NCBI RefSeq assembly: GCF_025996515.1
Contig: NZ_BLRH01000021.1
Coordinates: 385,211-449,210 of the forward strand
Reading direction: 5' to 3'
Source of the DNA: Rhizohabitans arisaemae
GTDB taxonomy: Bacteria; Actinomycetota; Actinomycetes; Streptosporangiales; Streptosporangiaceae
DNA: 64,000 nucleotides
The notes under the pieces are model-generated. The model had not been told where the DNA came from, ran no database searches, and worked only from the letters and a program-made list of their open reading frames with translations. Made by a program: the position numbers and the translations under genes. Below, in pieces: positions 2,816 through 33,318 of the stretch (position 1 is its first letter; the number at the start of each line of letters is the position of its first letter).

Positions 2816-3727
2816 TCAGGCGTGCGACGTGTGGTCGAGGATGATCTCGCCGATCCGGCGGGGCAGCCCGGGGGAGAGGAAGCTGTGCCCCATGCCGGGT
2901 ACGGCCGTCAGCCGTGCGTGCGGGATCTGCGCGGCGAGGGCCTCGCCGTGCGGCAGCGGACGCAGCGGATCCTCGGTGCCGTGGACGACCAGCGTGGGTG
3001 CGGCGATCGAGGAGAGCGGGACGAGCCGGTCGTCGGTCATCGTCCTTCCGGCCGGATCGTGGTTGGCGGCGGCGGCGTGATCGCTCGCCAGGTCGTACGC
3101 GGTCTCGGCGAGCCGTCGTGCGGCCGGCTCGTCGAAGGGCAGGACATCGCCGTTGAGCACGCGCCAGGTTTCCACGTTGCGCGCGATGTGTCCCGCGCGA
3201 CCGGCCGGGGCCACGGTCGCCGACCCCGCGAGGTGCCGCAGGAACCGCGGCGTGGGCGGCGGAAGGTCGTGGGGATCCGGTTCCAGCCCGGCCAGGGCCC
3301 GGGCGAAGGCGGGTCCCGCGCTGTGGCCCATCGGGCCGGTCATGATCGCGGTAAGGCTGAGCACGCGTTCGGGCCGATGCACCGCGAGCCACTGCCCGAT
3401 CGCGCCGCCGAGGGACGCCCCGGCGATGTGCGCGGCGACGATCCCGTACCCGTCCAGCACGGCGATCGCGTCGGCGGCCATGTCCGCCATCGTGTACGGG
3501 GTCGCGGTGAAGTCGACGCAGTCGGACCTTCCGGTGTCCCGGTGGTCGAAGCGGATCACCTGTCGCCCGCCGGCGGCGAGTGCCTCCACCAGTTCGTCCG
3601 GCCAGCCCGCCCCCGGAGTGGAGGTACCCATGACGAGCAGGATCGGCGGGTCCGCCGGATCGCCGCACTGCTCCGTCCATAGCCGAAGATTTCCAGCTAT
3701 TACGAACTTGCCGTGAATTGCGTTCAT
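2816..3727 (-). CDS. alpha/beta hydrolase
   Basis: The 303-residue product has the standard alpha/beta-hydrolase layout. It shows an oxyanion region (LLVMGTSTPGAGW), RFDHRDTGRSD after strand 4, a nucleophile elbow GASLGG, an acid in VVHGTEDPL and a catalytic His in PGMGHSF. This resembles the aclacinomycin-methylesterase-like/epoxide-hydrolase-like group that often carries the generic label alpha/beta hydrolase. The ATG at 3727 (MNAIHGKF) is preferred because homology begins there; an in-frame ATG at 3775 would add 16 poorly conserved residues. No substrate can be inferred from the neighbours. Confidence 0.85.
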   Translation of the reverse strand: MNAIHGKFVIAGNLRLWTEQCGDPADPPILLVMGTSTPGAGWPDELVEALAAGGRQVIRFDHRDTGRSDCVDFTATPYTMADMAADAIAVLDGYGIVAAHIAGASLGGAIGQWLAVHRPERVLSLTAIMTGPMGHSAGPAFARALAGLEPDPHDLPPPTPRFLRHLAGSATVAPAGRAGHIARNVETWRVLNGDVLPFDEPAARRLAETAYDLASDHAAAANHDPAGRTMTDDRLVPLSSIAAPTLVVHGTEDPLRPLPHGEALAAQIPHARLTAVPGMGHSFLSPGLPRRIGEIILDHTSHA

Positions 3728-4126: not shown

Positions 4127-4453
4127 TCAGCTCTCCGAACGCTTCAGGTGCGCGGCGACGCAGGTGCCGTCGTCGCTCAGCCAGCCCTTGCGCCGGGCGT
4201 AGCCGAGCATCGCGTCGAACCGCTCGTCCCAGTCGTCGGACCGGGCGCCCGTGCGGGCCCGCTCGCGGAGCGCCCGCACGTCCAGCCACATCCGGCCGGC
4301 TCCGGCCGGTCGGCCCATCCCGTCGGTGCGAAGCGCTTCGCCGACGGTCTCGTCGTCCAAGCCGTCCGCGTGGATGTGCAGGCGGCTGCAGTCGTCGGCG
4401 TCCTCCACTTCGAGCCGGGGCGTCTCTCCGGTTGCGGTGATCGTCACATGCAT
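4127..4453 (-). CDS. Small conserved-type hypothetical protein
   Basis: I do not recognise this 108-residue protein. The ATG at 4453 is chosen because GGAGGA lies at the right distance before it. A longer frame upstream to 4708 reads as low-complexity Ala/Arg sequence and looks untranslated. The product is acidic, with a beta-rich N-terminus (MHVTITATGETPRLEVED) and a helical C-terminus containing DDWDERFDAMLGYARRKGWL followed by DGTCVAAHL. It has no signal peptide or membrane segment, so it is probably a small cytosolic protein. It is a single gene with no operon partner. Confidence 0.6.
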   Translation of the reverse strand: MHVTITATGETPRLEVEDADDCSRLHIHADGLDDETVGEALRTDGMGRPAGAGRMWLDVRALRERARTGARSDDWDERFDAMLGYARRKGWLSDDGTCVAAHLKRSES

Positions 4454-4962
4454 CGTCGGTCCTCCGCCGTCATCGGGGGTGGATGCCTGCCTCGCCGCCG
4501 CGGCCGGTACTCGGCCTCGGTCGCGAGGGGCCGTGGCATGGAGCCCGCCCGCCTCCTCGGGCACCGCGTCGATGGTCGCACGGATGCGGATCAGGGGCAT
4601 GGGGGAGACGTGCTCACTTTCCGGAGCGGGGCCGCAAGCGGTGGACACGGTGACGGCACTGCGGTGCGGACCTTGGTTCCCCCTCCTGCCGAGAGGGCAA
4701 CACCGCACAAATGGCTCGGTGTTTTCTGTAGAGCTTTTGTCTTTCCGCTCGTCCGGTCAATATCAATTAGGTTTCGTTTCCATTGGGTGTTCGCCGATGA
4801 AGATCAGAGGATCTCTGGACATCGGCGTCGACGGGCTAGGTGATCGATATGAGTTTTGATCCAGCGGTGAATGTGTAAAAGTCAACATTCCGGCATGATG
4901 TCAATTTTCACCTGTCGTGTAATGCTGGGGACGCACCTTGGCAGGACGAAAGGCGAAAGATC
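4454..4962. other. Intergenic region, likely promoter of the crystallin-like gene
   Basis: No supported gene is seen. The last 120 bp before 4963 are distinctly AT-richer than the surroundings (GTGTAAAAGTCAACATTCC, then TCAATTTTCACC and GTGTAATGCT) and probably hold the promoter and 5' UTR of the next gene. GAAAGGCGAAAG provides a weak ribosome-binding site. Confidence 0.4.
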
Positions 4963-23707: not shown

Positions 23708-25102
23708 ATGAGTCTCGATCGGCGGAGCTTCGTCAAGACGGGGGCGGCTGTAACGGGCGGTGCGTTGCTCGGCGGCCCCCTCCAAGCCCTGGGTGCCTGC
23801 TCGGCGGGAGCCGCTCCGCTGGTCAAGCTCGCGCACAGCGTGGACTACGGCCCGCTGTACCCGGTCAAGGATCAGGCCACCGGCCTGGAGCTGCTTAAAC
23901 TGCCCAGGGGATTTGAGTACATCAGCCACGGCTGGACCGGTGACATGATGACCGACGGCCGTCCCACCCCGGGCGCGCACGACGGCATGGCGGCCTTCCG
24001 CCCGAGTCGCCGGCTCAAGAGCCGGATCAAAGGCAAGGCCAGGGACCACTGGACCGCGCTGGTGCGCAACCACGAACAGGGTGGCCTGTCCGGCGCCTTC
24101 ACCGAGGCGGCCTACGATCCCATGGCGAACGGCGGCACGACCAACCTGATCTTCGATATGCGGGCGGGCGAGTTCCTGGACACCTGGGCGAGCCTGTCCG
24201 GCACGCTCCGCAACTGCGCAGGCGGTCCTACCCCGTGGGGCACCTGGCTCTCCTGCGAGGAGACCACCTGGGTCAACGGCGAGGTACGCCACGGCTACAT
24301 CTTCGAAGTGCCGCACGACGGGGTCAGCCGCGCCAGACCGTACAAGGCGATGGGCCGCTTCACCCACGAGGCGGTCGCCGTCGACCCCGTCACGGGCCAC
24401 GTCTACGAGACCGAAGACGACGACCCGGCGGGAGTGTACCGGTTCCGCCCCCGCAAGCCCGGTACGCTCGCCGCGGGCGGGGTGCTGGAGATGATGCGGA
24501 TCGGCGACTCCTCCTACGACACAAGACACGACGGCACCGGTACGGTCTACCCCGAGATCGACTGGGTGCGCATCGCCGTTCCCGACCCGGCCCCGGGCGG
24601 GACGAGCACCGTACGGCAGGGCATCGCCCGGGGTGGTGCCGTGTTCTCCCGGCTGGAGGGGGCCTGGCACCATGCGGGCAAGGTCTACCTCGTCAGCACC
24701 AGCGGTGGCCCGAGCGGGCTTGGACAGCTGTTCGAGTACGACCTGCGGACCGGCACCATGAAGGTGCTCTTCACCTCACCCGACGCCTCGGTGCTGAACA
24801 ACCCGGACAACATCTGCGTCAGCCCGCGAGGTGGCATCGTCCTGTGCGAAGACGGCTGGGTCGCGCCGCAACACCTCCACGGGCTCACCGCGGCAGGAGA
24901 GATCTTTCCGTTCGCCGCCAACAACGTCGTCATCCCCGCAGAGGGGGTACCCGGCAAGTCGGTGTACCCCGGCGACTACACCGGCTCGGAATGGTGTGGC
25001 GCCACCTTCGACACCAGGCGCGGCGACTGGCTCTTCGTGAACATTCAAACGCCCGGCATCACCTTCGCCATCACCGGCCCCTGGCGGAACGGCTCGCTGT
25101 AA
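23708..25102 (+). CDS. PhoX-family alkaline phosphatase (Tat-exported)
   Basis: The 464-residue protein starts with a twin-arginine signal (LDRRSFVKTG) and hydrophobic AAVTGGALLGG. PhoX/DUF839 hallmarks follow in order: LVRNHEQGG, LRNCAGGPTPWGTWLSCEET, GRFTHEAVAVDPVTGHVYE, NPDNICVSPRGGIVLCEDG and YTGSEWCGATFD. PhoX phosphatases are beta-propellers that use Ca2+ and Fe3+ and release phosphate from organic esters outside the cell. The Cys of RNCAGG and acidic ligands are present. CTGGAGGTCAGGTC before the ATG gives the ribosome-binding site. It is monocistronic; a long hairpin follows. It would normally be induced by phosphate starvation, but no PHO box was identified. Confidence 0.9.
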   Translation: MSLDRRSFVKTGAAVTGGALLGGPLQALGACSAGAAPLVKLAHSVDYGPLYPVKDQATGLELLKLPRGFEYISHGWTGDMMTDGRPTPGAHDGMAAFRPSRRLKSRIKGKARDHWTALVRNHEQGGLSGAFTEAAYDPMANGGTTNLIFDMRAGEFLDTWASLSGTLRNCAGGPTPWGTWLSCEETTWVNGEVRHGYIFEVPHDGVSRARPYKAMGRFTHEAVAVDPVTGHVYETEDDDPAGVYRFRPRKPGTLAAGGVLEMMRIGDSSYDTRHDGTGTVYPEIDWVRIAVPDPAPGGTSTVRQGIARGGAVFSRLEGAWHHAGKVYLVSTSGGPSGLGQLFEYDLRTGTMKVLFTSPDASVLNNPDNICVSPRGGIVLCEDGWVAPQHLHGLTAAGEIFPFAANNVVIPAEGVPGKSVYPGDYTGSEWCGATFDTRRGDWLFVNIQTPGITFAITGPWRNGSL

Positions 25103-25145
25103 CCCGCGTGGTACGGACCGCCGATCAGAAAGACTGGGACACCGC

Positions 25146-25186
25146 CGTACCCGAACCGGCTCTGCGCCAGAAGCGGTTCGGGTACG
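25146..25186 (+). terminator. Hairpin after the phoX-like gene
   Basis: A perfect 13-bp stem (CGTACCCGAACCG and complement) encloses a 15-nt loop. It lies 44 bp after the stop; no T tract follows. Confidence 0.55.
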
Positions 25187-25486
25187 CGAAGCCGTGATCA
25201 CAGGCACCTGTGGCGTGGCGCATGGTCGTCTCTACTCCTCGCCGCCCTTCTCGTCCGGTGCCGGATCCACCCCGTCAATCGCGACGGCTCGGCCGCGGGA
25301 TACCGGTCGGGGATGAACGCGCGGCCGTTCTCACGCTCGCGGCCGATGGCGTAGGCGTCACGCCCGGTCCGTCGGGCGAGGATCCGGTTTGCCGTAAACC
25401 CCAGGGCACAGACCCACCCGAGACATTCACCGCAACAGAGTGAATCGGCTGACGTTTCCGGGCCTGTCGAATAATCGGATGAGATG

Positions 25487-25496
25487 TGTGATCACA
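25487..25496. promoter_or_regulatory. TGTGATCACA palindrome upstream of the RNA-protein operon
   Basis: This perfect 10-bp palindrome contains CRP/FNR-like half sites without the usual 6-bp spacer. It is 18 bp before the GTG start of the next gene and could be an operator. Confidence 0.3.
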
Positions 25497-25513
25497 ATCG
25501 CTAGCCTCGTGCC

Positions 25514-26245
25514 GTGACCAAGCTCAATCAGATCCTCGCCGTGGAAAAGGGTGTCAAGTCCGACGTTCAGCGCAAGGCGACCGAGGCACAGCACACCGTC
25601 CAGAAGGCGCCGCTGCTCTCCGGTATCTCGCGGACCTATCAGCCGATCGACGACGAGGGCGAGCGGCTTCCGTCCGAGTCGACCAGGGTGCAGGTCCAGG
25701 TGGAGAGCGTACTCAAGGACGTCGCCGCCGGCCTGACCCGGCTGTTCGACGTCACCGCGACCAAGGACTGGGCGAACTGCGAGGCCCGGGCAGACGTCAC
25801 CGTGGACGGAACCGTCCTGCTCTCCGGGGTCCCGGTGACCTACCTGCTGTTCCTGGAGAAGCAGCTGTCCGATCTGCAGACGCTGATCTCCAGGCTGCCG
25901 ACCCTGGACCCGTCCGAGACCTGGACGCTCGACGAGAACAGCGACACCTGGCGCACCGATCCGGTCAAGACCACCCGGACCAAGAAGGTGCCGCGTAACC
26001 ACGTGCTCGCCGAGGCGACCGAGAAGCACCCCGCCCAGGTACAGGTGTACAACGAGGACATCGTCGTCGGCTACTGGACGAAGATCACCTTCTCCGGGGC
26101 TCTGCCGCAGCGGCGCGTCAACGAGCTCCAGACCAGGGTGCAGAAGCTTCAGGACGCGGTGAAGTACGCCCGGGAAGAGGCCAACGGCATCGAGATCACC
26201 GATCGCCGGATCGGTGAGACCGTGTTCGGCTATCTTCTCGGCTGA
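25514..26245 (+). CDS. MTKLNQI-type (DUF7873-like) protein heading a permuted tRNA-like RNA operon
   Basis: The 243-residue protein starts MTKLNQILAVEKGVKS. That opening recurs in actinobacterial and actinophage hypothetical proteins; I believe the family is DUF7873, and its function is unknown. It is charged and soluble: helical N-terminus, a beta-rich middle (DWANCEARADVTVDGTVLL), conserved-looking YLLFLEKQLSDLQTLISRLP, TRTKKVPRNHVLAEATEKHP, and a C-terminal coiled coil (RRVNELQTRVQKLQDAVKY). GTG start; probably leaderless, with a -10-like TAGCCT just upstream. Ten bases after its stop begins a UUCG hairpin, then two circularly permuted tRNA-like units and a terminator, so protein and RNAs are probably co-transcribed. 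A role as RNA-binding or RNA-processing partner is inference. Confidence 0.8.
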   Translation: MTKLNQILAVEKGVKSDVQRKATEAQHTVQKAPLLSGISRTYQPIDDEGERLPSESTRVQVQVESVLKDVAAGLTRLFDVTATKDWANCEARADVTVDGTVLLSGVPVTYLLFLEKQLSDLQTLISRLPTLDPSETWTLDENSDTWRTDPVKTTRTKKVPRNHVLAEATEKHPAQVQVYNEDIVVGYWTKITFSGALPQRRVNELQTRVQKLQDAVKYAREEANGIEITDRRIGETVFGYLLG

Positions 26246-26254
26246 TACAAGACT

Positions 26255-26276
26255 CCCATCCCCTTCGGGGGGTGGG
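26255..26276 (+). ncRNA. UUCG-capped hairpin between the protein gene and the tRNA-like units
   Basis: CCCATCCCC pairs with GGGGGTGGG (9 bp, one G-U) around a TTCG tetraloop, an exceptionally stable fold. A second small stem GCGC/GCGC with loop GAGGA follows at 26278-26290. No T run follows, so it is more likely a processing or protective element than a terminator. Confidence 0.7.
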
Positions 26277-26299
26277 TGCGCGAGGAGCGCAAGCTGAAA

Positions 26300-26398
26300 C
26301 TGAGGTTAAGCCTGAACAGCGGTGTCAGTGGGGGTTCGATTCCCCTCCCGGGTACATGTCCGGGTAGCCCAATGGCAGAGGCAGCCGTTCAAACTCAG
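26300..26398 (+). ncRNA. Circularly permuted tRNA-like RNA, unit 1
   Basis: The order is reversed compared with a tRNA gene. First comes an anticodon-stem 3' strand (CGGT, 26320-26323) and a short variable loop. The T-arm follows: GGGGG, loop TTCGATT (26335-26341), CCCCT; then the 3' acceptor strand CCCGGGT (26347-26353). After a linker ACAT (26354-26357) come the 5' acceptor strand GTCCGGG (26358-26364), TA, D-arm GCC/GGC with a GG-containing loop, and anticodon-stem 5' strand GCCG (26384-26387). The acceptor strands pair over 7 bp (two G-U). Outside, TTCA/TGAA and CTCAG/CTGAG pair the two ends, like a bulge-helix-bulge. Under a 4-bp anticodon stem the loop begins UUCAAA, giving a possible CAA anticodon; this reading is uncertain. 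Confidence 0.8.
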
Positions 26399-26452
26399 AC
26401 TCTCGCTCCAGATTCAGCATTGCCGTCGAGCGTGGCGCGACCGAGATGGACA

Positions 26453-26535
26453 GTGATCGCTGAGATGCCGGTTCGAGTCCGGCTCGATGCTCCAACATGC
26501 ATCGGTGGTTCAACGGTAGGACGCAGCATCATCAC
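26453..26535 (+). ncRNA. Circularly permuted tRNA-like RNA, unit 2
   Basis: Same permuted order as unit 1 with different sequence. GCTG (26459-26462) is the anticodon-stem 3' strand, then AGAT. The T-arm has GCCGG, loop TTCGAGT (26472-26478) and CCGGC: a perfect 5-bp stem and canonical T loop. The 3' acceptor strand TCGATGC (26484-26490) is followed by TCCA and then ACAT. The 5' acceptor strand is GCATCGG (26499-26505), then TG, D-stem GTTC/GGAC with loop AACGGTA, and CAGC (26524-26527). The acceptor has 7 bp including one G-U. The ends pair as GTGAT (26453-26457) with ATCAC (26531-26535). TCCA just after the acceptor looks like an encoded discriminator plus CCA. The anticodon is uncertain (CAU in one alignment). 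Confidence 0.8.
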
Positions 26536-26587
26536 GAATGATCCACTCTCTTAAACGCCGCCGACGCCGTACATGACGGCTTTCTCA

Positions 26588-26629
26588 GACCCCCGGGACA
26601 CGGATAGGTTCCCGGGGGTCGCTCCTTTT
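26588..26629 (+). terminator. Terminator of the protein/permuted-tRNA operon
   Basis: A perfect 11-bp stem (GACCCCCGGGA and complement) encloses an 11-nt loop and is followed by GCTCCTTTT. It lies about 50 bp after unit 2. Confidence 0.85.
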
Positions 26630-27087
26630 ATCCGGTCATCCAGGAGCGGTCACCGTCGGCGGGGCCGTCGACCAGAGGGAAGCACATCGGCGCAAGCAGC
26701 TCTTCTGATGCCTGTACGGTTTGCGCCCGATCGTCGGGCTGTCTCGCTGGCGGGAGGAGTATTCCCGAACTCCGCGAACCTGCCGTCGCTGGTCCGGACG
26801 CAGTATCTGCCACCGCCGTCGAATGAAATCGGTGTCGGTGAAGGCCGACCACCGACCGGCGACAAGCGCTTGCGCAGAACGCCGGTGATGGCTTCTCGTC
26901 GTCATCAAGTGCCACGACCGCGGCCCGATTCTGGATCACCAAGTGCGCCCGAGTGAAACAGCGAGTCCCGCCGCGATCCCCGCGCGGGCGTCGGACCAAA
27001 GCTCGCATGGGAACGTCCCTTCGCAGGCGGCTGGGCCGACTACGCTGCCGAGGTCAGCCGCCGCAGCCCGATGCAGGAGGACACCGG
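26630..27087. other. Intergenic region without a supported gene
   Basis: Several overlapping open frames exist on both strands, but none shows a domain, a ribosome-binding site or consistent third-position GC. The last 30 bp carry AGGAGG for the gene at 27088. Confidence 0.4.
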
Positions 27088-27783
27088 ATGACCAGCCACG
27101 ACGCCCTCGCCGATGGTGAGGTGTGGGACCCCTTCGCTACGTTGCACCGTACGCTGTGGATCGGCGGCGGCCAATGGGCCGGCAAGTCGACCGTCGCCCG
27201 GCTCTTGGCCGTCCGGTACGGCGTGACTGTCTACCACTACGACTACCAAGACGCCCGTGGTCACAACGATCGCCGGATCGCCCGTTGCGTCGCTCGCGGC
27301 GAGCCCACCGGCGAACCGGACCCGGACAAGGTATGGGTCCACCCCACCCCGGAGGAGATGGCCGCCGAGACCCTGGCCGGGTTCCCCGACCGGTTCGAAT
27401 GGGCCCTGGACGACCTGCGGGCACTCGTCTCCGGTCACCCGATCATCGCCGAAGGCTGGGGACTCCGCCCCGAACTCGTCGCACCCGTCATCGACTCAGC
27501 GCGCCGGATGGTCGTCATGGTGCCTACACCCGAGTTCCGTCGGCACCAGCTCCGCACGCTACCCCGGGCCGCGTCGCTCGGGCATCCCGTCAGCGATCCG
27601 GCCCGCGCACAGGCCAACCGCCTCGCCCGGGACCTGCTCGTCGCCGAGGACGCCGTCCGTACCGCCCACAGTTTGGGCATCCGTGTGATCGAAGTCGACG
27701 GTTCCCGCGACGCCGCCGCGATCGCCGAGGACGTCGCCGACCACTTCAGCCCTTACCTCCCGCCGCACGATCGCGAAGCCTGA
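27088..27783 (+). CDS. P-loop kinase-like NTP-binding protein
   Basis: The 231-residue protein has Walker A GGQWAGKST (residues 27-35) after a short N-terminal arm, then VTVYHYDYQDARGHNDRR, which fits the base-binding region of small P-loop kinases. HPIIAEGWGLRPELV and RRMVVMVPTPEFRRHQL look like the Walker B strand and lid. Chloramphenicol-phosphotransferase or adenylylsulfate-kinase-like folds are possible; I cannot choose. AGGAGG precedes the ATG at 27088. It lies 460 bp after the permuted-tRNA operon, behind its terminator; a link to RNA end-processing is only a thought. Confidence 0.75.
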   Translation: MTSHDALADGEVWDPFATLHRTLWIGGGQWAGKSTVARLLAVRYGVTVYHYDYQDARGHNDRRIARCVARGEPTGEPDPDKVWVHPTPEEMAAETLAGFPDRFEWALDDLRALVSGHPIIAEGWGLRPELVAPVIDSARRMVVMVPTPEFRRHQLRTLPRAASLGHPVSDPARAQANRLARDLLVAEDAVRTAHSLGIRVIEVDGSRDAAAIAEDVADHFSPYLPPHDREA

Positions 27784-28216
27784 TCGCCACAGCCATGTGC
27801 CGTCATGACCCGTGATCTGATTGACCACAGCTTCTGCGGCGGACAAGCGGCCTTGCAGCCCGCAGGCGCCGCTCGTGGCCGAACCGCTGGCATCGAGGCG
27901 CATCACCTGTTCGCCACCGCTCACCTGTTCGCGGGCAAGGGCGACCCGCGCGTCCGCGCACACCTTGCCGCCTGCGGCAATCGGGTACATGGGACCCCGT
28001 GGAGCTACTTGGGCGACTCGCTCATGCTGCTCCATTCCGCCTTGATCAAATTCGATGTGCCGACGCCGTATGCGAAGGACGACGCCCCGCGAAGACCGGA
28101 TCGAAAGGCTGAACCGACCGGCCGGCGATCGCTCGGCCGCCTAGCTGATCGACTTGGCGCTCTGGTGGCTCTGCCCACACCGCGATGCTTCACCGCCGTT
28201 CGTGACACCTGGCCGG
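27784..28216. other. Intergenic region without a supported gene
   Basis: Plus-strand and minus-strand frames of about 140-160 codons overlap each other here, without domains or ribosome-binding sites. I see nothing that can be called. Confidence 0.35.
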
Positions 28217-29242
28217 TCAGGGGCGGATCACGGTGATGCCGGGGACCTGGCCGAGGGTGGTGAGGGCGTGGCCGGCTTCGGGGAGGCCGATCCGGCGGGT
28301 GATGAGGCGGTCGGGGTTGAGGGCGCCGGCGCGGATGGAGTCCAGCATCGGGGGGTAGGCGTGGGCGGGCATGCCGTGGCTGCCGAGGACCTGGAGTTCG
28401 TGGGCGATGACGTGGTCCATCGGGATCGGGGTGGGGCCGCCGGGGAGCAGGCCGATTTGGACGTGGCGGCCTCGGCGGCGTAGTCCGAGGATGGCGTCGG
28501 CGCAGGTTGCGGGGTTGCCTAGGGCGTCGATGGACACGTGGGCGCCGCCCCCGGTGAGCTCGCGGATCTGTGCGACGGTGTCACCGGAGGAGGCGTCGAC
28601 CAGATGTACGGCGCCCGCCTCCCCGGCGAGCCGGAGCGCCTCGGGGTTGACGTCGACGGCGACCACGAGAGCCCCGGCGGCTGCGGCGATCATGATGGCG
28701 GAGAGGCCGACTCCGCCGCAGCCGTACACGGCGAGCCATTCGCCGGGCCGGACCGCGCCGACCTGGGTGACGGCGCGGAAGGAGGTGGCGAAGCGGCAGC
28801 CGAGGCCGGCCGCCGTGGTGAAGGGCATCTCCTCCGGCAGGCGGATCAGGTTGACGTCGGCGTGGTCGATCGCCACCAGGTCGGCGAAGGACCCCCAGTG
28901 GGTGAAGCCGGGCTGGGTCTGCCGTTCGCAGACCTGCTGGTCTCCGGCGGCGCAGGACGGACAGGTGCCGCAGGCGCAGATGAACGGGACAGTCACCCGG
29001 TCGCCTGGCCGATGGTTGTGTACGTCGGCGCCGACGGCCTCGACGGTTCCGGCCAGCTCGTGCCCGGGGACGTGCGGCAGCGTACGGATATCGGGGTCAT
29101 GGCCCTGCCAGCCGTGCCAGTCGCTCCGGCACAGCCCCGTCGCCGCCACCCTGATCACCACACCGCCGGGGGAAGGCCCCGGGTCCGGCACCTCCCGCAA
29201 GTCCATTGCCCCGCCGAACTCCTCAAAGATCACCGCACGCAT
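28217..29242 (-). CDS. Zinc-dependent alcohol dehydrogenase
   Basis: The 341-residue medium-chain dehydrogenase has catalytic-zinc ligands C38 (GLCRSDWHGW) and H61-E62 (PGHELAG). Its structural zinc site is complete, with Cys 91, 94, 97 and 105 in CACGTCPSCAAGDQQVC. The Rossmann motif is GCGGVGLSAI, and VVAVDVNPEAL supplies the acidic NAD-selecting residue. Length and motifs fit class III/arabitol-type or aryl-alcohol dehydrogenases; the substrate cannot be deduced. It is a single gene whose stop lies in a gene-poor stretch. Confidence 0.9.
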   Translation of the reverse strand: MRAVIFEEFGGAMDLREVPDPGPSPGGVVIRVAATGLCRSDWHGWQGHDPDIRTLPHVPGHELAGTVEAVGADVHNHRPGDRVTVPFICACGTCPSCAAGDQQVCERQTQPGFTHWGSFADLVAIDHADVNLIRLPEEMPFTTAAGLGCRFATSFRAVTQVGAVRPGEWLAVYGCGGVGLSAIMIAAAAGALVVAVDVNPEALRLAGEAGAVHLVDASSGDTVAQIRELTGGGAHVSIDALGNPATCADAILGLRRRGRHVQIGLLPGGPTPIPMDHVIAHELQVLGSHGMPAHAYPPMLDSIRAGALNPDRLITRRIGLPEAGHALTTLGQVPGITVIRP

Positions 29243-29766: not shown

Positions 29767-32700
29767 CTAGAAGGGCGGTATCTCCGGTTCGTTGAGGCGT
29801 GCCACCTCCAGTGGGGTGAACCATCGCCTGAAGGCTGTGGAGCCTGGCCACGTTTTGTCGGAGGGGAAGTCGTCGGAGAGGAAAATAGGGGTGTCGTCGT
29901 CGGGGATCGGGCAGTCCGGCAAGGTCATCGTGCGGGGTGCGGCGTCGGGGAGCGGGATCACGGTCGGCGGCGGGGAGGTCGGGCAGATCTGCCCCAGGCG
30001 GGTGGTCCAGACGATGTCGCCGGTGGGTGCCATGGTGGCCTGCCAGCCGCCCTCGTGGCGGAGCCGGTGGTCGTGGCGGCAGACGCTGTGCAGGTTGCCG
30101 GCCGTGGTCGGCCCGCCCCGGCTCCACTCGCGGATGTGGTCCTGGTCGGTGCGGGCCGCGGGGACGGCGCAGCCGGGCGCGGTGCACACCCGGTCACGCA
30201 CCTGCACGTAACGCCGAAGCGACGCGTCCGCGAACCTGCGCCCGGAACCGGCACCCGGCCCGGACGGTCCGGGACCGGCAAAGCCGGGCTCGGCGCCGTG
30301 AAGGCCGGCCGGTCCGCGCCCCGTCCGGGGTACGGGCACGGCGTTGTCCGCCGTGTCCTCGCCTTCGGGGTCGTCCAAGCCGGCGACGGCCCGGACAGGA
30401 CCACGACCGGCAAAGCCGGGCTCAGCGCGGTGCGGATCGGCCCGTGGACCTACAGGCCCACCCTCATCCGTCTCGCCCCCGCCTTCGGGGTCGTCGGCGC
30501 CCGGGCCGGTCCTGCCGGTTCCGGTGCGGGCCGGACGGTGTCGCAGGTCCCCGGCTCCGGGGGCCGGGCCGCCCGGCCGCACGCGGTCGCGGCCGGCGGT
30601 CAGGCGGGCGATGTCGCCCAGGATTCTCCGCCAGCCCTCCGGCAGGTCCGGTATGCCGAGGAGCCTGGCCAGGCCGGCCTCGGCGATCCGGATCTCGACG
30701 ACCCCCTTGGCCTTGACGGACGCGTTCACCATCTTTCCCTGAGGAACCAGCTTTCCCTGAGGGACCGCGCTCCCGGACCTGTCCCCGGCATCTGCTCCGA
30801 GGCGCCCCACAGGTACACGGTGGGGTTGCCCGCTGGGTGCGGGGCGGTGACGGGTGACCCCGCAGTCGATCAGGCGGCCCTCGTCGTCGGTCAGCACACA
30901 CCGCCACAGGCCGCCGGCCTGATCACAGGCGATCCGCCGGGCCTGCCCGGCGGTGACCGGCCCCCACCCGGCCAGCTCACCGGGACGCTCGTCCAAACCC
31001 AGCAGCGTGGTCACGTCGACCCGCAGCTCGCCGGCCGCCCACCGCTGCGGGCTCCCGGCACCGATCCCACCGCCGCCGCTGGCCGGGCCACTCCCGATCG
31101 CTTCCGGACCGGTCGCGGCGACGGCGGACCCGCCGACCGGCCGCTGCCGGTGACCGGGACGGGGGCCGGGATCTCCACCGGGCGGTGGCCCGCATGCGTG
31201 CTCCTCCGACGCCCGGGGCGGTGGTGCCGCCCGCGGCCGCAGGGCCTCCGGTGAGCCGTTACGGCCACTCCGAGGTTCTTCCCCGTGCCGCCCGGGCGTG
31301 TACCGCACCTCACAGGAGGCGCCGATCCCGGGGCCGGCACCGGTCTGCGCGGGTGTCGTCGGCGACCCGCCGGGCGGGCCCGGGGAACCGGTCCCCTCCG
31401 GGTGGGCCGATGCTCCCGTGTTCGTGCGGTCCCGCGGCCCGCCGCCGAGCGGGGAGCAGACTCGAAGGATTGCGGCGGCCGGTCCGGCGGAGGCGGGCCC
31501 GCGCGTTTCCCGGCTCACCTCCGTCCATCCCACCTCCGTCCATCCCACCTCCGGCCGCCGCGGTCCCGCCGGTGATCCCGGGTCGTCATGTCCTCCCGGA
31601 CCATCAGCGCGATCGGCTGGGCGAACCCGCCCGGCGACCGTCGGACGACCGTCGGCCTGGGCTGCGGTCCTACCGTCGCCGAACCCACCCGCCGGGCCGG
31701 ATGAAGCCTCTGTATCCGGACCGTCCGTCCGCTTGGGGCCTGTCGGTGCCTGCGCACCGTCGCACCGCCCCGGAACATCATTGCGATCAGTTGAGGGATC
31801 CTGCCGGACGATCACCGGACGACGGTCGCCCGAGGATGCGGCCGTACGGTTGTCGAACTCGTCGACCGGGACCGATGCAACCCGTGCATCCGGACCGTCC
31901 GTCCGCTGGGGGCCTGTCGGTGCCCCCACACCGTCACGCCTCCCTGGGACATCACCACGACCGGTTGAGGGATCCTGCCGGACGATCACCGGACGACGGT
32001 CGCCCGAGGATGCGGTCGTACCGTCGTCGAATCCGTCGGCCGGGGCTGATGCCACCACCGCATCCGAACCCTCCGGCCGCCGCGCCACAACCGGCGGACC
32101 CAATCCGTTACACCGCGCCGGGACCTCACCTCGATCGGGTGAGCCGACCTGCCGGGCAACCAGCCCACGATGGTCAGCCCCGGCTGCGACCGTATCGTCG
32201 TCGGATCGGCCGACCGGGCCGGACGCGGCCCGCCCGTCCGATCCGTGTGCGGCTCTGCGCGCGTCCGGATCGTCCGGCCTTGCAAAGCCTCCGGACATCC
32301 CGCCAGGCACGGTCCTCGGTCGATCGCATCCGTCGGCACCGGCCCCTCGCCGCAGGCCGCCCCGGTGTGCCGGTGAGCCCACCCCGCGCCGCGGCGTGAT
32401 CTCCGGCGGGGAGCCGCCTTCCGCTTCTGCCTGCTCCGCTTGGGACTCGGCCACCAGGAAGGCGACGATCCGCTCATCGGACCAGCCCTGGAAGCCGCCG
32501 TCCAAAAGGCCAAGGAACAGCTCCGAGCGGATGTGCTGGGTCAGCCTGCGGTCCCCCGCGGCCTTGGCCCGCCGCGCCAGGGAGTCCATGCGGGAACACG
32601 ACGCCGCCACCCGGTCCAGCGGCTGGTCCACCCCCGAAAGGTTCGCCGTGCCGTCCGGATTGCGCGACCCCACCACCCGGCGCTCCCGCACCGCCGCCGC

Positions 32701-33255
32701 ACACCGCCGCTCCGCCCAGTCCGGGTCGATCGCCAGAGCCGCCCGCTTGACCGTATCGACCAGCTCACCGGCCGTCAGGAATCCGGCCACCGCAAGCAGC
32801 CTGCCGCACACCGATCTGGCCTGCTCGGCGGTCAGCTCCCGTGTCCAGGTGGCGAACACACGTGCCTTCACCTCATCGATCACGCCATGTTCCAGAGCCT
32901 CGTGCACCTTCGGCAGCCGCGACAGCAGATCCCACGCCTCGGCGAAACGGGACGAGGCCCGGCTGCGCGACCAGGCAAGGGCCGGGCGCAGCTCGTCGGC
33001 GGAGAACTCGTCCGGCACCTCCTGCCGGCACACCCGCGAACCCGGCCCGGGGGCACGCAGGCCGACCTCCACCATCACCGCCATGAACCGGGCCTCGTCG
33101 TGGGCCCGTTGCCGGGACCAGGCCTTCAACACCACCACCGCGTCCGCCGCCGACACCGCGGTCTCATCGATCCCGGCCAGCACCACGGCAAGCCCGGGAC
33201 CGGGCGGCATCTGCGCCAGCCCGGCCGGGATCCGCTGTGTCACGGGAACGCTCAC
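29767..33255 (-). CDS. DUF222-HNH endonuclease-like protein with a very long low-complexity insert
   Basis: The N-terminal 260 residues match DUF222 (13E12-type): ADAVVVLKAWSRQRAHDEAR, then LLSRLPKVHEALEHGVIDE. The C-terminus has an intact HNH motif: CTAPGCAVPAARTDQDHIREW followed by GGPTTAGNLHSVCRHDHRLRH. Between them lie roughly 500 residues of Gly/Pro/Asp/Arg-rich sequence. This contains imperfect repeats built on RPVIVRQDPST and GAPTGPQRTDGPD, and a near-duplicate EVGWTEVGWTEV. The family is normally 400-600 residues, so the insert more than doubles it. GTG at 33255, preceded by GGGTGGGGG, is preferred; a GTG at 33318 is possible. HNH proteins of this class may be homing-type or defence nucleases; function is unknown. 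Confidence 0.8.
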   Translation of the reverse strand: MSVPVTQRIPAGLAQMPPGPGLAVVLAGIDETAVSAADAVVVLKAWSRQRAHDEARFMAVMVEVGLRAPGPGSRVCRQEVPDEFSADELRPALAWSRSRASSRFAEAWDLLSRLPKVHEALEHGVIDEVKARVFATWTRELTAEQARSVCGRLLAVAGFLTAGELVDTVKRAALAIDPDWAERRCAAAVRERRVVGSRNPDGTANLSGVDQPLDRVAASCSRMDSLARRAKAAGDRRLTQHIRSELFLGLLDGGFQGWSDERIVAFLVAESQAEQAEAEGGSPPEITPRRGVGSPAHRGGLRRGAGADGCDRPRTVPGGMSGGFARPDDPDARRAAHGSDGRAASGPVGRSDDDTVAAGADHRGLVARQVGSPDRGEVPARCNGLGPPVVARRPEGSDAVVASAPADGFDDGTTASSGDRRPVIVRQDPSTGRGDVPGRRDGVGAPTGPQRTDGPDARVASVPVDEFDNRTAASSGDRRPVIVRQDPSTDRNDVPGRCDGAQAPTGPKRTDGPDTEASSGPAGGFGDGRTAAQADGRPTVAGRVRPADRADGPGGHDDPGSPAGPRRPEVGWTEVGWTEVSRETRGPASAGPAAAILRVCSPLGGGPRDRTNTGASAHPEGTGSPGPPGGSPTTPAQTGAGPGIGASCEVRYTPGRHGEEPRSGRNGSPEALRPRAAPPPRASEEHACGPPPGGDPGPRPGHRQRPVGGSAVAATGPEAIGSGPASGGGGIGAGSPQRWAAGELRVDVTTLLGLDERPGELAGWGPVTAGQARRIACDQAGGLWRCVLTDDEGRLIDCGVTRHRPAPSGQPHRVPVGRLGADAGDRSGSAVPQGKLVPQGKMVNASVKAKGVVEIRIAEAGLARLLGIPDLPEGWRRILGDIARLTAGRDRVRPGGPAPGAGDLRHRPARTGTGRTGPGADDPEGGGETDEGGPVGPRADPHRAEPGFAGRGPVRAVAGLDDPEGEDTADNAVPVPRTGRGPAGLHGAEPGFAGPGPSGPGAGSGRRFADASLRRYVQVRDRVCTAPGCAVPAARTDQDHIREWSRGGPTTAGNLHSVCRHDHRLRHEGGWQATMAPTGDIVWTTRLGQICPTSPPPTVIPLPDAAPRTMTLPDCPIPDDDTPIFLSDDFPSDKTWPGSTAFRRWFTPLEVARLNEPEIPPF

Positions 33256-33318
33256 AACCCCCACCCTGCCACCGCCCACCGACAATTCCCGACCCGAATC
33301 AGCACCCCAACAAACCAC

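Follow-up and report, generated by a model that had tools for sequence, protein, structure and literature searches.

A conserved predicted RNA with two permuted tRNA-like heads accompanies the DUF7873 gene in actinobacteria and phages

The established protein partner of Y RNAs in bacteria is Ro60. Here we describe a predicted RNA with two tRNA-like heads of permuted order that is almost always paired with a gene of the DUF7873 family across actinobacteria and phages, and whose fold, as covariation demonstrates, is conserved. In the window, that is, the whole 64-kb stretch of DNA analysed, the RNA lies directly behind the DUF7873 gene (Table 1). On balance we lean towards the view that this RNA and DUF7873 constitute a Y-RNP-like particle independent of Ro60, the heads of which would dock tRNA-binding enzymes. 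The permuted fold of the YrlA type was already known; the new element is the partner, DUF7873 in place of Ro60/TROVE.

Both permuted units sit where an earlier note on this DNA had put them, and a re-reading of the sequence returned the same acceptor pairings, 2/7 of those of unit 1 being G-U. They were the sole matches in the window, both on the + strand, to a strict descriptor demanding a T-stem of 5/5 pairs, a TTCRA loop, at least 6/7 acceptor pairs across 3-15 nt and a D-arm with GG; the - strand gave zero matches. Modification by DusA and TruB, as in tRNA, counts among the features of YrlA, the bacterial Y RNA; the units found here have the TTCRA T-loop, which the descriptor itself demands. 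ARAGORN called no tRNA or tmRNA in the window, as expected from the permuted order.

Table 1. Positions of the DUF7873 gene and of the predicted RNA elements in the window
Feature	Position	Strand	Evidence or remark
DUF7873 (PF25283) gene, 243 aa, directly upstream of the RNA	25514-26245	+	Pfam E 8e-117, residues 1-242
Two short hairpins in the gap between gene and RNA	26255-26263/26268-26276; 26278-26281/26287-26290	+	sequence; similar stretch in aligned relatives
Domain 1, carries unit 1	26293-26418	+	Y-like stem 26293-26305/26406-26418; stem 26312-26315/26395-26398
Permuted tRNA-like unit 1	26318-26389	+	sequence and covariation
Unit 1 anticodon-stem-like pairing	26318-26322/26385-26389	+	72.4% paired (alignment A3)
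Unit 1 variable-loop-like segment	26323-26329	+	
Unit 1 T-arm	26330-26346	+	T-stem 100% paired (alignment A3)
Unit 1 3' acceptor strand CCCGGGT	26347-26353	+	mate: 5' acceptor strand GTCCGGG
Unit 1 acceptor loop ACAT	26354-26357	+	
Unit 1 5' acceptor strand GTCCGGG	26358-26364	+	
Unit 1 D-arm	26367-26382	+	D-stem invariant (alignment A3)
Near-invariant unpaired segment ACTCTCG within CTCAGACTCTCGCTCCAG	26399-26405	+	
Domain 2, carries unit 2	26422-26580	+	outer stem 26422-26427/26575-26580
Domain 2 inner stems	26430-26433/26564-26567; 26447-26450/26542-26545; 26453-26457/26531-26535 (weak)	+	
Permuted tRNA-like unit 2	26459-26527	+	sequence and covariation
Unit 2 anticodon-stem-like pairing	26459-26462/26524-26527	+	94.2% paired (alignment A3)
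Unit 2 T-arm	26467-26483	+	
Unit 2 3' acceptor strand TCGATGC	26484-26490	+	mate: 5' acceptor strand GCATCGG
Unit 2 acceptor loop TCCAACAT	26491-26498	+	
Unit 2 5' acceptor strand GCATCGG	26499-26505	+	
Unit 2 D-arm	26508-26522	+	
Terminator-like hairpin, then TCGCTCCTTTTA	26590-26618	+	8/9 pairs with compensatory change

Conservation of the fold was assessed on a structure-blind alignment, A3, of 58 sequences (the window and 57 of the 80 relatives fetched). This alignment omits 23 loci (21 Streptomyces, one Streptosporangium and one Actinacidiphila) where the strict scan either detected unit 2 alone or had no match close to the gene, and which were not added back. The named structure comprises 83 pairs, which held in 91.3% of 4741 cells; sliding of the partner strand brought this down to 45.3% or less, a control over which the named structure is favoured because it was drawn from the window sequence. 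Both sides of a pair had changed in 450 cells and at 52 pairs, compared with 146.1 and 32.8 in shuffles that ignore kinship. A lack of compensatory change in the permuted acceptor stems had been named in the earlier note as a refuting outcome; such change was seen at 7/7 pairs of each unit, with 99.8% (unit 1) and 99.5% (unit 2) of the cells paired. Such changes, present in the two acceptor stems and in the majority of the outer helices, uphold the claim that these are permuted units, not split or tandem tRNAs. The further claim that the outer ends of each unit pair at the anticodon position stands for unit 2 and, with a weaker stem, less firmly for unit 1 (Table 1).

The remaining helices differed in what they could tell. 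Helices 1 and 2 of domain 1 were 90.0% and 92.2% paired, with compensatory change at 3/11 and 0/4 pairs; these stems are nearly invariant, hence poorly testable, and receive little covariation support. In domain 2, helices 7, 8 and 9 were paired in 93.7%, 85.7% and 93.4% of the cells, with compensatory change at 4/6, 4/4 and 3/4 pairs, and the weak inner stem in 60.5%. RNAalifold, run on 16 sequences, gave 74 pairs, 41 of them with compensatory change. Single-sequence folding was slightly better than shuffles (z -1.66 and -1.52) and uninformative; when domain 2 was folded by itself, its minimum-energy structure did not reproduce the T-arm as drawn.

Tandem or decayed ordinary tRNA genes could mimic a permuted order, and this artefact does exist: tandem tRNA-Asn pairs reached 38-54 bits, at the seven loci checked, with R1, a covariance model of domain 1 built from 29 DUF7873-linked sequences. 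Here, however, ARAGORN calls no tRNA and the acceptor strands co-vary within each unit in the 58 sequences, which refutes this origin and leaves it a negligible probability. It is also very improbable that the units are permuted tRNA genes, with transcripts that become working tRNAs through circularisation and cutting, or chargeable two-piece tRNAs through opening at the acceptor loop. Such genes would explain the canonical T and D loops, as well as the acceptor loops: among 281 units collected from three groups with the relaxed descriptor, the base after the discriminator was C in 262 and the loop encoded N-CCA in 90, so that by its letters the acceptor loop resembles a tRNA 3' end caught in a loop. 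The discriminator was mostly A in unit 1 (58/69, actinobacteria) and mostly T in unit 2 (49/76). According to passages of PMC3978253, the known permuted tRNA genes are those of algae and archaea, carry a splicing motif at the junction and give tRNAs after circularisation. The likeness is that the 3' half is encoded before the 5' half, but the units described here have neither anticodon nor anticodon loop, their ends being held by conserved outer stems, and where the anticodon would be, base pairing continues into further conserved stems (A3). The absence of one head in 19/69 loci also speaks against working tRNAs.

In permuted two-piece tmRNA, the 3' acceptor part is likewise encoded ahead of the 5' part. 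This order is shared, whereas no Rfam tmRNA match appeared at E up to 1 within 24000-29000, ARAGORN called none, and no reading frame is conserved across the RNA region, the T1-T2 distance modulo 3 being distributed 12/22/22 over the 56 of 81 loci measured.

The structure reaches beyond the range that the earlier note had drawn, into two domains with the approximate limits given in Table 1. That note had spoken of two RNAs, which is doubtful: the domains lie 3 nt apart with a single terminator-like hairpin behind them, so that one transcript is likelier and both domains probably form one RNA. This hairpin together with TCGCTCCTTTTA is the probable 3' end of the RNA; a consensus terminator scanner with loops limited to 8 nt reported nothing at the hairpin. 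The two short hairpins ahead of domain 1 are a possible processing or boundary element, and the near-invariant ACTCTCG segment within CTCAGACTCTCGCTCCAG is a possible recognition site. The ACTCTCG motif, which was derived from these same loci, occurred in 81/81 actinobacterial, 5/16 phage and 39/80 viral loci; the corresponding controls gave 14, 1 and 10 upstream and 7, 0 and 10 on the reverse strand.

A search of genome contigs provided 119 relatives of the DUF7873 protein, 80 of which were fetched with their loci. The strict scan, covering up to 700 nt downstream of the gene, found at least one unit in 77/80 loci and at least two in 50/80; the three that it missed (L059, L067 and L068) contain a unit whose acceptor loop is 23 nt long, which brings the loci with at least one unit to 80/80. 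When 69 loci, including the window, were classified by the flanking motif, unit 1 was present in 50 and unit 2 in 63. The 19 loci where unit 1 was not found belong to Streptomyces (17), Actinacidiphila (one) and a Streptosporangium with a long insertion (one). In Streptomyces examples a plain hairpin is all that is left of the first head, with unit 2 and the flanking motif both kept; two heads are therefore not always needed. At the Spongiactinospora locus (L017) a second permuted pair (4279-4332 and 4427-4487) follows the first, and the RNA seems to be duplicated.

The pairing was also evident in a draw of 296 genomes of the class. DUF7873 was found in 25 of them and was intact in 24, and an R1 match adjoined each of the 24 intact genes (weakest, 42.1 bits); the 25th genome, which has gene fragments only, gave no R1 match. 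All 21 R1 matches above 57 bits adjoined DUF7873, a count to be read knowing that R1 was built from DUF7873-linked RNAs and so favours close kin. Weaker R1 matches elsewhere fell on tandem tRNA-Asn pairs (seven loci checked) or near TROVE genes.

DUF7873 was present in 73 phage records, duplicate deposits counted: Vibrio (29), Gordonia (12), Rhizobium (12), Klebsiella (7), Serratia (6), Arthrobacter (3), Pseudanabaena (2), Rhodococcus (1) and Microcoleus (1). We fetched 16 of these 73 records. The descriptor placed permuted units downstream of DUF7873 in 15/16, and the RNA was present in 16/16 overall, as in the Microcoleus phage (L097) R1 found it behind another gene. Six of these loci (L123-L127 and L131) have one unit each, whose acceptor loop measures 24-30 nt and which the relaxed descriptor alone detects; in the Vibrio and Rhizobium phages the descriptor found one unit only, and R1 was weak or silent. 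As to viral contigs, 80 of the 176 with a relative were kept. The relaxed descriptor, which may admit tandem tRNAs, found a unit in 69/80, and R1 added 7 of the remaining 11, three of them weakly at 24-29 bits, so that about 76/80 carry the RNA. None was found in four loci (L156, L157, L180 and L211), one of which spans only 193 nt; L180 and L211 were searched with R1 as well.

The units were distributed unevenly around the viral genes. Over 75 viral loci, the strict descriptor gave 67 matches on the coding strand downstream of the gene, and 1, 0 and 0 in the upstream +, upstream - and downstream - positions; with the relaxed descriptor these figures were 108 against 14, 6 and 2. The RNA lies upstream of DUF7873 in L185 (2130-2379) and on the opposite strand in L168 (4489-4749). 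These two arrangements, and that of L097, favour a separate RNA over a cis element, that is, a 3' UTR through which DUF7873 or tRNA-binding factors would control the DUF7873 transcript. Such an element would agree with the close spacing in actinobacteria, where the first RNA stem starts a median of 52 nt past the end of the DUF7873 match (80/81 loci measured), and there is a precedent for a regulatory RNA that folds like a tRNA (PMC9142559). Two domains with their own terminator-like hairpin are nevertheless large for 3' UTR control, and we regard a cis element as quite unlikely.

Phage DUF7873 genes also tend to lie close to tRNA genes. In a tRNA search of 12 phage records, DUF7873 was within 0.7 kb of a tRNA in nine and at 3.3 kb in one, two cyanophages being exceptions at 60 kb; the gene is nearer to tRNA genes than under uniform placement (combined Fisher p 4e-4; 10 records, two close relatives omitted). 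At least one tRNA call lay nearby in 24 of the 52 viral loci scanned, out of 80, a figure that has no control count and includes a few calls, for example in L144, that overlap the RNA itself. In the Klebsiella phage vB_KpM_FBKp24 (L128, NC_061421.1), a suppressor tRNA (TTA) is annotated at 3518-3597, overlapping the start of unit 2 (3570-3648); it is probably a misread part of the DUF7873-linked RNA. The same record places a promoter immediately ahead of unit 1, at 3302-3333. In Gordonia phage Phendrix (L091), an 89-bit tmRNA match at 1072-1600 lies in a tRNA array upstream of DUF7873 and is missing from the record's feature table there.

The earlier note was right about the permuted fold and overlooked the DUF7873 gene, the almost constant companion of the RNA. 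The protein matched no other Pfam family, TROVE included, at E up to 0.01. Close relatives of it come from Streptosporangiaceae-type actinobacteria, with 86% identity to Planobispora and Planomonospora, so that the host probably belongs to this group; the family is large, with at least 5858 matches among 7999 candidates scored. AlphaFold predicted a fold in which long helices are combined with a long beta hairpin (pLDDT 92.5, pTM 0.76; confident in 2/5 models), with no clear structural relative in PDB or BFVD. No match was found in PDB sequences, PHROGs, PADLOC or NCBIfam; with neither a match in these nor a clear fold relative, DUF7873 bears no independent mark of RNA-binding. None of the papers in the literature searched names DUF7873. 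The other window genes tested (PhoX-like, radical SAM, response regulator, zinc dehydrogenase, a DUF222/HNH ORF and a family-less ORF) had no evident link to the RNA. The DUF222/HNH-type ORF at 29767-33318 (- strand) encodes 1183 aa and is far longer than its two matched domains. Genome G224 contains DUF7873 fragments and no R1 match, and in G022 DUF7873 is in two overlapping pieces, which suggests gene decay in some lineages. In a viral contig (L176, 2501-3226), the DUF7873 frame has one stop at codon 12, a case of decay, error or recoding.

Contrary to the statement in the earlier note that it knew of no well-described bacterial case besides permuted tmRNA, YrlA-type Y RNAs are a precedent: according to passages of PMC8394870, a long basal stem in them carries a tRNA-like domain composed of acceptor, D and T arms. 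The RNA described here likewise has a T-arm, acceptor hairpin and D-arm, permuted, on a basal stem made from the RNA ends. Covariation was found in the T-arms, the acceptors and the outer stems of domain 2, and the domain 1 stem is paired and nearly invariant, in agreement with the YrlA-type architecture. It differs from YrlA in having two domains 3 nt apart, in its position behind a gene and in the near-invariant segment in CTCAGACTCTCGCTCCAG. The Rfam YrlA model (RF02553) aligned end to end with the two units at 27.4 and 23.2 bits (E 0.0082 and 0.14), far under its gathering score of 69, which was missed by both window units and in 10 related loci; weak YrlA matches (E up to 10) were common, occurring in 13/14 control genomes. 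No Ro60/TROVE gene adjoins the RNA locus, its neighbour being DUF7873. With the Rfam score and the Ro60 neighbourhood both tested and both pointing elsewhere, we did not file the RNA as YrlA.

It is nonetheless conceivable, if unlikely, that the RNA is an ordinary YrlA, with a Ro60/TROVE partner encoded elsewhere and DUF7873 as an accessory. Besides the end-to-end alignment with Rfam YrlA, the only TROVE match of the host genome, a partial domain on a contig other than that of the RNA, has a YrlA-like site of 45.3 bits at about 2 kb. TROVE was found in 37/296 genomes, namely in 17/25 with DUF7873 and 20/271 without, an association that kinship confounds; in those 17 genomes Ro60 could bind the RNA in trans. 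The TROVE-linked loci of two drawn genomes (L242, 751-988; L243, 733-1055) showed the same permuted core, with two units each, the L242 pair immediately preceding the TROVE match, whereas at DUF7873 the units usually lie on the 3' side. Of the TROVE-linked acceptor loops measured, 2/3 begin N-C as the DUF7873-linked ones do, so this loop start is not special to DUF7873. However, the strong RNA matches track DUF7873 and not TROVE. No TROVE match was found in 8/25 DUF7873 genomes, 7 of them among the 24 with an intact gene, or in 13 of the 15 DUF7873 phage records searched, both exceptions being Rhizobium phages; the cassette thus needs no TROVE gene in the same genome. In one Rhizobium phage (RHph_Y65, L246) a TROVE gene at 1080-2648 lies about 5-6 kb from the DUF7873 gene, and the two systems may coexist there.

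The particle that we favour, of the RNA and DUF7873, has a model in RYPER, the Ro60/Rsr-YrlA-PNPase particle, in which, as passages of PMC8394870 and PMC7790460 have it, the protein sits on the stem and the enzyme docks at the tRNA-like domain. The proposed logic is the same, a stem-bound protein and an enzyme at a tRNA-like domain; the partner differs, being a 243-aa protein that matches PF25283 alone in Pfam and has no clear fold relative. The RNA would be expressed with both domains in one transcript and, by analogy, DUF7873 would bind the basal stems as Ro60 does on YrlA. The capped heads, which keep the T- and D-loop elbow motifs and lack an anticodon loop, would then be docking sites for proteins with an affinity for the elbow and acceptor end of tRNA, the candidates being modification enzymes, RNase P, PNPase and tRNA-cutting nucleases. 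Enzymes of this kind would be tethered or baited in tRNA quality control and, in phages, translation might be protected during infection. In this respect, a passage of PMC7790460 suggests that the YrlA tRNA-like domain is a competitive inhibitor of anticodon nuclease, and the placement of DUF7873 near phage tRNA genes fits a role of this type.

A more specific version of this mechanism, which we put forward as possible but doubtful, would make DUF7873 the mark of a second, Ro60-independent class of Y-like RNP in actinobacteria and large phages. Enzymes of tRNA processing would open the capped heads at the N-C(-C-A) acceptor loop, leaving two tRNA heads, nicked and devoid of an anticodon, to serve as baits or as chargeable ends, and phages would carry the cassette near their tRNA genes against host systems that cut tRNA.

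In summary, our analysis bears on annotation, since a stretch overlapping this RNA in a jumbo phage is labelled as a suppressor tRNA. If the proposed particle is real, the tRNA-mimic tether would be a design wider than Ro60, DUF7873 would gain a function and Rfam an RNA family, and the cassette would represent a testable candidate for the guarding of tRNAs by large phages.
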